Source of the DNA: Clostridiales bacterium
GTDB taxonomy: Bacteria > Bacillota > Clostridia > Saccharofermentanales > Saccharofermentanaceae
Assembly: GCA_017529925.1 (NCBI GenBank)
Contig: JAFXMZ010000008.1
Span: forward strand, 1 to 64,000
DNA length: 64,000 bases
Direction of reading: 5' to 3'
Shown: piece by piece, positions 35,027 to 41,743 of the stretch
Layout: each line of letters starts with the position of its first letter
Position numbering within the stretch: position 1 is the stretch's first letter
Made by a program: the position numbers and the translations under genes
The notes under the pieces: model-generated
What the model saw: only the letters and a program-made list of their open reading frames with translations
What the model was told of the DNA's origin: nothing
Database searches by the model: none

Positions 35027-35758
35027 ATGAAAAGAAACAGATTTATGACAGCGGCACTTGCTGCTTCGCTCGCACTCGCATCACTTGCATCTTTTGCATC
35101 CTGCTCAAAGAGCACAGAGGAGACTACGGCTTCTCTTACAACATCACAGGAGGTGACCTCTGCCGCTTCATCCGAATCAGAGACCGAAACGTCCACTGAA
35201 GCTACCACTACAAAGGCAACGACATCCGCCACGACGACAGAGACATCCGCGACGGCAACGACTTCGCTGGTGGACGGACTTTTCGACGGGGATCTTATCG
35301 GAGGAATGGACGGCACGGAAGCGACTTCGGCGACTTCTCCTTCAGAGACTGATCCCGACGGGAACCGGGCTGATCCTTACGGCGAAGTTCTCGGGGCCCT
35401 GCGCGATGACTATGTTAAGAAGGGATATATCCTCTCCGACCTCGGAGAAGACTACAGGAACGGCGTCGGGATCTCATTCCAGTACAACGGATCCGAGTAT
35501 GCTTTCACGAGAGGTTTCCGCGGCACTCACGGTCAGGATAATGTCCTGGCTGCGAAGATCGACGACACCATCTGGAGTGCATATTCGTCCACTCTCAATC
35601 CCGATGAATACAGGAAGACCGAAAGCGGCAACACAGTCACATATTCAATGATCGTTCCGGAGAACCGCGATCTGACAAAGCTTGAGATCAGATATGACCG
35701 CACCGGCGGTGTCATGGTCCAGGAGTATTCCTTCGCTGACGGCGAGGCCGAGGGCTGA
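35027..35758 (+). CDS. Lipoprotein with a Thr/Ser-rich stalk, unknown domain
   Basis: The 243-residue protein has a signal with lipobox-like SFASC (Cys about 26), a Thr/Ser/Glu-rich low-complexity stalk (about 30-115), and a C-terminal globular domain of about 120 residues (GEVLGALRDDYVKKGYILSD, ISFQYNGSEYAFTRGFRGTH) whose family I do not recognise. The stalk would hold the domain away from the membrane, as in many Clostridial surface lipoproteins. It is a single gene; the first unit of the palindromic array just downstream (stem plus eight T) would serve as its terminator. Confidence 0.75.
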   Translation: MKRNRFMTAALAASLALASLASFASCSKSTEETTASLTTSQEVTSAASSESETETSTEATTTKATTSATTTETSATATTSLVDGLFDGDLIGGMDGTEATSATSPSETDPDGNRADPYGEVLGALRDDYVKKGYILSDLGEDYRNGVGISFQYNGSEYAFTRGFRGTHGQDNVLAAKIDDTIWSAYSSTLNPDEYRKTESGNTVTYSMIVPENRDLTKLEIRYDRTGGVMVQEYSFADGEAEG

Positions 35759-35838
35759 CGGACCCTTTCCCTGCTGCCGCCGGGCTAGGGCGGATCCGGA
35801 TCCGGTCCGGTTATACCAAAACATCAAAAATGCAAAAA

Positions 35839-36060
35839 TAGTATACCGAGACGACGCCTTCGGTATACTTTTTTTTCGAATTTTGAAAAATAGTATACCA
35901 AAACTGAGGATCCGGTATACCAAAATTTAAAAAAACGAAAAATAGTACACCGATTTGGCCTTTTCGGTGTACTAAATCGCTAAAAAACGAAAAATAGTAT
36001 ACCGGCTCAACGTTTTCGGTGTACTAAATCGCTAAAAAACGAAAAATAGTATACCGGCTG
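35839..36060. repeat. Tandem array of 52-bp palindromic units
   Basis: Four full units (35839-35890, 35891-35942, 35943-35994, 35995-36046) and the start of a fifth (36047 on) repeat with an exact 52-bp period; a decayed partial unit precedes them. Each unit is TAGTATACCG, about 12 variable bases, the complementary arm, then an AT-rich linker ending acgaaaaa. Units 3 and 4 share the linker aaatcgctaaaaaacgaaaa. Arms pair over 7 to 10 bp in every unit. Unit 1 is followed by T8 and could terminate the upstream lipoprotein transcript. The array lies between convergent genes, with no coding frame. It is the main content of the 409-bp gap 35759-36167. Confidence 0.9.
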
Positions 36061-36113
36061 ACCCGGTTTATTCCTGCCGTTCGTGATACATTCCAATAGA
36101 AGACTCCACAGAC

Positions 36114-36148
36114 AAAAACGGTATGCCGCACTTGCCGGCATACCGTTT
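36114..36148 (-). terminator. Rho-independent terminator of the rubrerythrin operon
   Basis: AAACGGTATGCCG pairs perfectly with CGGCATACCGTTT across a 7-nt loop, followed on the minus strand by TTGTC. The stem core GGTATGCCG resembles the arms of the neighbouring 52-bp array. Confidence 0.8.
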
Positions 36149-40774: not shown

Positions 40775-41743
40775 ATGGAAAATCCTGTTCTTTACATTGT
40801 CATTCCCTGCTATAACGAGGAGGAGGTCCTCCCTCTGACGGCACCTCAGTTCCTCAAACAGCTTACGGACATGATGTCCGCGGGGCTGATCTCTGATAAG
40901 AGCCGGATACTCTTCGTCAATGACGGAAGCCGCGATACGACATGGGAAGTCATCAGTTCCCTTTCCGCTTCCGATGCAAGGTATAAGGGCATCTGCCTCT
41001 CGCGCAACAGGGGACACCAGAATGCACTCCTCGCCGGCCTTCACGAGGCTCTGGAGCAGGGTGCCGACATAACGGTCTCCATCGACTGCGACGGACAGGA
41101 TGACATCACTGCGATGAGCAGGATGGTGGAGGAATACCATAAGGGCAGCGAGATCGTCTACGGCGTCAGGAGTTCCAGGGATACCGATAAGTTCATGAAG
41201 CGTTTCACCGCGAGATCTTACTATAAGCTCCTCAAGGTAATGGGCGCGGATGTCGTCTACGACCATGCCGACTACCGTCTCGTTTCCGCGAAGGTCCTCC
41301 GCGAATTCGAGAACTTCACCGAGGTCAATATCTATCTGCGCGGAATGTTCCCTCTCGTAGGATTCAAGAGCACATCCGTCTACTACGAGCGCAAGGAGAG
41401 AGAGGCCGGCAAGAGCCACTATCCCCTGTCGAAAATGCTCTCACTCGCATTCGACGGCATCACGAGCCTTTCGATAAAGCCGATAAGGATAATAACGGGG
41501 ATCGGCGGGTTTGTCGCACTCTTCAGCTTTATCTTCATCATCTATTCATTCGTAGGATTCTTTACGGGCAATACGGTTCCCGGATGGGCAAGTACGAGCT
41601 CCATCATCTGCTTCCTCTGCGGAGTCCAGCTCCTGAGCCTCGGCGTCATCGGCGAATATATAGGCAAGATCTATCTCGAGACAAAGAGGCGCCCGCGCTT
41701 CATAATCTCCGAGAGGACACCTGAAAACAGCGAAGATGAATAA
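40775..41743 (+). CDS. GtrB-like glycosyltransferase family 2 (polyprenyl-phosphate sugar synthase)
   Basis: The 322-residue protein loads a sugar from a nucleotide donor onto undecaprenyl phosphate on the inner face of the membrane. The GT-A domain has VIPCYNEEEVLP, FVNDGSRDTTWE, the DxD equivalent DCDGQDD and RNRGHQNALLAGL. Two C-terminal transmembrane helices (about 230-295) are typical of GtrB/DPMS. It is sandwiched between two GT-C enzymes that would use its product after flipping; a GtrA-like flippase is encoded at 12.6-13.2 kb. It overlaps the next gene by 8 bases. Confidence 0.92.
   Translation: MENPVLYIVIPCYNEEEVLPLTAPQFLKQLTDMMSAGLISDKSRILFVNDGSRDTTWEVISSLSASDARYKGICLSRNRGHQNALLAGLHEALEQGADITVSIDCDGQDDITAMSRMVEEYHKGSEIVYGVRSSRDTDKFMKRFTARSYYKLLKVMGADVVYDHADYRLVSAKVLREFENFTEVNIYLRGMFPLVGFKSTSVYYERKEREAGKSHYPLSKMLSLAFDGITSLSIKPIRIITGIGGFVALFSFIFIIYSFVGFFTGNTVPGWASTSSIICFLCGVQLLSLGVIGEYIGKIYLETKRRPRFIISERTPENSEDE

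Follow-up and report, generated by a model that had tools for sequence, protein, structure and literature searches.

Several families of small non-coding repeats with a modular, palindromic structure are known in bacteria. BOX elements of Streptococcus pneumoniae and S. suis are composite intergenic repeats with end modules, variable tandem internal modules, inverted ends and stem-loops, and their families are species-specific with a common plan (PMC3049150). BIME/REP elements consist of palindromic units in alternating orientation, regularly spaced, which form an extragenic, species-specific mosaic (PMC2817692). SPRITE, a repeat of S. pneumoniae resembling a Rho-independent terminator, is represented by a single 18-bp duplex (PMC3049150). 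The array of palindromes considered here is located in a window of 64,000 nucleotides, the whole stretch of DNA that was analysed, and follows a comparable composite plan with a pitch of 52 bp. A search of the open-access literature revealed no description of a 52-bp family, which does not prove that none exists.

Layout of the array

The array occupies positions 35809–36056 and comprises four palindromes and one unpaired half-arm at each end (Table 1). The palindromes, TAGTATACCG-N12-CGGTATACTA and its variants, are repeated at a pitch of exactly 52 bp, and every unit has arms of 10 nt and a loop of 12 nt. For the exact hairpin GTATACCG...CGGTATAC, 0.00 occurrences are expected in shuffled windows. 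The ends of the array represent terminal inverted repeats, CGGTATACTA...TAGTATACCG, imperfect in several copies; outside the terminal half-arms complementarity ceases, and a closing stem is not supported. The flanking genes are convergent: the + strand encodes a putative lipoprotein rich in serine and threonine, and the - strand a DUF896 protein and rubrerythrin. The lipoprotein (35027–35758) matched no Pfam family above the cut-off. Apart from the array, a single tandem repeat was reported for the window, namely two copies of a 23-bp unit at 41080–41125.

The preliminary description had recognized the exact 52-bp period, the four complete units with the start of a fifth and the convergent neighbors, all of which were borne out. 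It had missed the opening right half-arm, so that half-arms are present at both ends. Its inverted repeats were also found, but the variable loop of 12–14 bp that it reported is 12 nt long in all units, and the loops are homologous between copies rather than random. CRISPR, which it had already set aside, is rejected, the loops being homologous between arrays and the arms diverged.

Table 1. Features of the array and its surroundings (positions in the window)
Feature	Positions	Strand	Remarks
Whole copied unit (element)	35784–36103	+	98.1% identity over 320 bp to the copy on contig C11; similarity ends here
5' terminal half-arm GGTTATACCA	35809–35818	+	In the register of right arms; other complete arrays open likewise
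Palindrome 1, module C: TAGTATACCG-N12-CGGTATACTT	35839–35870	+	
Linker 1, 20 bp	35871–35890	+	T-rich, then A-rich
Palindrome 2, module B: TAGTATACCA-N12-CGGTATACCA	35891–35922	+	
Linker 2, 20 bp	35923–35942	+	A-rich
Palindrome 3, module A: TAGTACACCG-N12-CGGTGTACTA	35943–35974	+	Compensatory change in both arms
Linker 3, 20 bp	35975–35994	+	A-rich
Palindrome 4, module A: TAGTATACCG-N12-CGGTGTACTA	35995–36026	+	
Linker 4, 20 bp	36027–36046	+	A-rich
3' terminal half-arm TAGTATACCG	36047–36056	+	Opposite in orientation to the 5' half-arm
GC-rich intrinsic terminator of the DUF896/rubrerythrin genes	36116–36148	-	Inverted repeat; neighbor, outside the element

Distribution in the genome and in the genus

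A relaxed dyad pattern gave 24 matches per strand in the whole genome, compared with 0 for the reversed control. Pattern search and a covariance model (R1) revealed about 13 arrays of the GTATACC arm family, containing a few dozen dyads, on contigs C3, C6, C8, C11, C17, C18, C21, C22 (three arrays), C27 and C30 (two arrays); one of the C22 arrays is apparently split between contigs C22 and C37 by an insertion sequence (IS). The arrays have half-arm ends and three to five internal dyads. Most arrays have a common order of modules, namely, read from 5' to 3' on the A-rich strand, a half-arm, module C, module B, one or two modules A and a half-arm, arranged in 52-bp rows; several arrays deviate from it. 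The loop is close to AAACGACGTCTT in module C, AAATCGAGGATC in module B and GCGCGGCCTTTT in module A. The similarity of the window array to its C11 counterpart is followed by abrupt divergence, and the genes adjoining the C11 copy are unrelated. C22c and C30b constitute a second pair of recent copies. Two further arrays of the genome, detected with model R1, have other arms, CGGATAACA/TGTTATCCG (L114) and GTACAGG/CCTGTAC (L115).

The IS, with an ORF starting with MAQINLTLSEK, apparently splits the C22/C37 array and also abuts the C11 array (L037 1–130, L040 1–135, L033 5250–5411). No Pfam or NCBIfam match was found for this IS fragment, a possible duplication, AAATAGTA, was observed at the split array, and the arrays may be favored targets of this IS. 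In a scan of public genomes, the only near-identical sequence was a conspecific contig of Lachnospiraceae bacterium RGIG6094 from sheep omasum (99.9% to C11); matches in Acinetobacter and Desulfuromonadales proved to be short, unrelated repeats.

The GTATACC family had no confident match in 84 other genomes of the genus or in genomes from elsewhere in the order. In the 84 genomes, model R1 gave two weak matches, both of them arrays that differ in their arms: AACGTACC/GGTACGTT in G029 (L117) and AAGTATAC-like in G101 (L116). The architecture with a pitch of about 52 bp and other arm sequences was found in at least four additional species (G017, G029, G101 and G005) of the genus. The G017 genome contains 24 matches to the arm pattern TGTTTGAAC/TGTTTACAC, against 0 for the reversed control. 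These correspond to about ten arrays with ordered modules and about five palindromes each (L215–L223, L133), which keep the 52-bp register except for one 51-bp step in two sister copies. A tail resembling GCTAATCCGGTTCCGATCAC, located 3' of several G017 copies, could be part of the element.

A sequence-independent detector, run on samples of approximately 200–400 kb with a recall of 21 of 32 known or candidate loci, found further arrays in G017, G029, G101 and G005, and gave 0 matches in shuffled DNA. Two matches in the out-of-genus control G061 were rejected, one as low-complexity AT-rich sequence and the other as a simple coding-type repeat. The detector found no array in a 200-kb sample of G107 and, within its limits, none at the locus of DUF896 in any of 23 sister species. 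When the GACTGAAA arm pattern was searched for across species, matches were few, and the control gave equally many. No array was present in viral contigs of IMG/VR, and a phage origin was accordingly rejected. The recurrence of one plan with different arms points to conservation of spacing rather than sequence and to an overlooked class of mobile repeats.

Constancy of length and pairing of arms

In the family of the window, the 52-bp register, the 12-nt loop and the 20-nt linker are constant in all arrays laid out, although 40% of sites, on average, differ between units. Constant length despite this divergence suggests selection on length; the neutral expectation for insertions and deletions behind this argument is a general background rate. 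Such a constraint is better explained by geometry at the DNA level (52 = 5 × 10.4 bp) than by RNA hairpins, and spacing is probably constrained in the DNA, at five helical turns.

Arms are coupled across the loop, each matching its partner better than the remaining arms of the array, with p = 0.036 in the window family (10-nt arms) and p = 0.043 in G017 (12-nt arms), non-significant with longer arms; these values are modest, depend on arm length and were obtained after inspection of the data. Pairing of arms across the linker was unsupported. Clear compensatory pairs are GTACACCG/CGGTGTAC, AAGTATACTG/CAGTATACTT and GTACGTG/CACGTAC, and a clear compensatory contrast is represented by TGTTTACACCAT/ATGGTGTAAACA versus TGTTTGAACTAT/ATAGTTCAAACA.

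Position relative to genes

The arrays are found preferentially near the 3' ends of genes and between genes that converge. In the two main families, convergent pairs flank 10 of 19 classifiable arrays versus 18 of 127 in the background (p = 4e-4), and divergent pairs flank 0 of 19 versus 33 of 127 (p = 0.005), the counts being based on simple ORF gene calls and on a background mostly from G017. Of 9 arrays between co-directional genes, 8 have the T-rich strand in the sense orientation (p = 0.02); the C21 array was assigned by hand to the co-directional group owing to a short gpmA-like ORF. A GC-rich terminator was detected between gene and array for 9 of the 29 neighboring gene 3' ends that face an array.

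A clean insertion polymorphism between two species was found near the gene of tRNA-Gly(CCC). In G029, the space between a gene end and the tRNA-Gly(CCC) promoter contains an array of about 250 bp (L148 5262–5700), while the syntenic interval of G101 is empty (L169 4400–4560), with flanks 81–97% identical to those of G029. A tRNA gene is located within approximately 320 bp of four of the seven arrays outside the two main families and of the C17 array of the window family (L115, L117, L148, L231, L034), the background density being about 12 tRNA genes per Mb. No target-site duplication was seen at pairs of copies, and the sole empty site comes from a diverged species. A search of the genome with the end sequences retrieved almost exclusively array copies, plus one isolated match at C3:115974, and no parent transposase was found. 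The family PF01797 (Y1, RAYT/TnpA-REP) is absent from the genomes G000, G017, G005, G029 and G101 (69% complete), while control genomes gave matches.

Origin and function of the arrays

The array is probably a single copy of a small interspersed repeat of composite structure, non-coding, mobile and non-autonomous, the pitch of which would serve a protein. Each copy presents inverted-repeat arms at a pitch of five helical turns (52 bp), separated by A-rich linkers and closed by a half-arm at each end. Copies may be spread by a recombinase or transposase acting in trans, and the regular pitch may be due to a DNA-binding protein, either the mobilizing enzyme or an architectural protein, bound to the dyads on one face of the helix. 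Copies would be retained mainly at the least harmful places, between gene ends, and may be of benefit to the host. Several arm families in one genome fit poorly with a single DNA-binding protein, unless several proteins are involved. A broader reading, advanced tentatively and rather doubtful at present, is that mobile dyad arrays are genus-wide, with conserved pitch and A-rich linker and with lineage-specific arms, in which compensatory changes maintain self-complementarity and which a cognate putative trans-acting factor recognizes.

Most of the data are also compatible with a purely selfish MITE without a host role, in which spacing would reflect the needs of the transposase alone; this overlaps with the composite mobile repeat, differs from it with regard to host function and is a serious possibility, although short of probable. 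The inverted half-arms at both ends, the dispersal, the insertion polymorphism and the tolerance of copies mostly at gene 3' ends agree with it, while the lack of target-site duplications and of a parent element bearing matching ends does not, and no MITE with a tandem 52-bp pitch was found in the literature searched. An operator array of a regulatory or chromosome-organizing protein (partition, nucleoid), forming a regulon-like set, would account for the five-turn pitch, for the GTATAC cores, near-invariant in both arms, and for the central A block, similarly placed in two families. Such an array is quite improbable, given the avoidance of divergent promoters in the two main families, the variation of arm sequences between and within species and neighboring genes without an evident common function. 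The preliminary description had named local slippage as the outcome that would deprive the array of wider meaning. Linkers 3 and 4 with the adjoining arms are indeed almost identical (TRF), but the consensus search that it proposed, in the same genome and in relatives, revealed about 13 dispersed arrays with ordered homologous modules and the same plan in other species, so that slippage is excluded for practical purposes.

The main functional rival is a role of RNA at gene 3' ends: the array would be transcribed from the neighboring gene, and the row of hairpins, especially from the T-rich strand, would block 3' exonucleases or aid the end of transcription. Predicted folding is stable on both strands (z about -8), although equal folding is expected from a DNA palindrome; eight terminator-like sites were found near the array versus 1.8 in shuffles, and the changes in arms are compensatory across the loop. 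The T-rich strand is mostly the sense strand between co-directional genes, and in the window family a U tract directly follows each stem on that strand; in G017, however, the U-rich stretch is not directly 3' of the stem. The stems have 4–5 GC pairs with the 12-nt loops. In the main family, GU mismatches between arms are as common as AC mismatches (22 and 23, respectively), and the assignment of an RNA strand from such a bias was rejected, the window family having none. A fixed 12-nt loop and 20-nt linker are needless for RNA. Rfam 15 gave no match at the gathering threshold for the window or the other arrays, weak matches to miRNA being far below the cut-off. On this evidence, action as RNA is unlikely. 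As primary terminators the arrays are improbable, because the - strand neighbor has its own terminator (Table 1), as do several other genes ahead of an array; a terminator-like contribution of the T-rich strand is possible. Of the candidates in the preliminary description, terminators are therefore disfavored as the main function, and protein sites and a structured nucleic acid are retained: the strict spacing favors a constraint at the DNA level, and covariation across the loop favors a hairpin or dyad.

Repeat finders based on letters would overlook such families or treat them as species-specific repeats without relation to one another. If geometry is the conserved trait, the arrays allow a direct test of the recognition and spread of non-coding elements without a REP-type transposase. 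They could also serve as strain markers for rumen bacteria.

Relation to described repeat elements

With MITEs, the arrays share small size, AT-rich non-coding sequence, inverted ends and dispersal, and differ in the internal tandem dyads and in that neither target-site duplication nor a parent transposon was found. As in SPRITE, a stem is followed by a T-rich tract and the 3' ends of convergent genes are occupied, whereas several stems of 8–10 bp at a fixed pitch are present here. Repetition of a palindromic unit at regular spacing also recalls CRISPR; here, however, the palindrome spans the 12-nt 'spacers', which are homologous between arrays, and the arms have diverged.

Similar to BIME/REP elements, the arrays are extragenic, with sequences that differ between species, and throughout each of them the arms switch orientation at fixed distances. 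However, the arms have no GTAG-type head and about 13 arrays are present, as opposed to more than 100 REPs. The arrays are not a strict REP/BIME family, because no gene of the RAYT (Y1) transposase was found in the five genomes. The likeness to BOX lies in the plan: half-arm ends, inverted relative to each other, enclose a variable number of tandem internal modules with stem-loops, and each species has its own families built alike. Unlike BOX, a pitch of about 52 bp is constant across families with differing arms, and each internal module is a separate dyad. On the best reading, drawn by analogy, the arrays would work like BOX (PMC3049150) and BIME (PMC2817692) elements.
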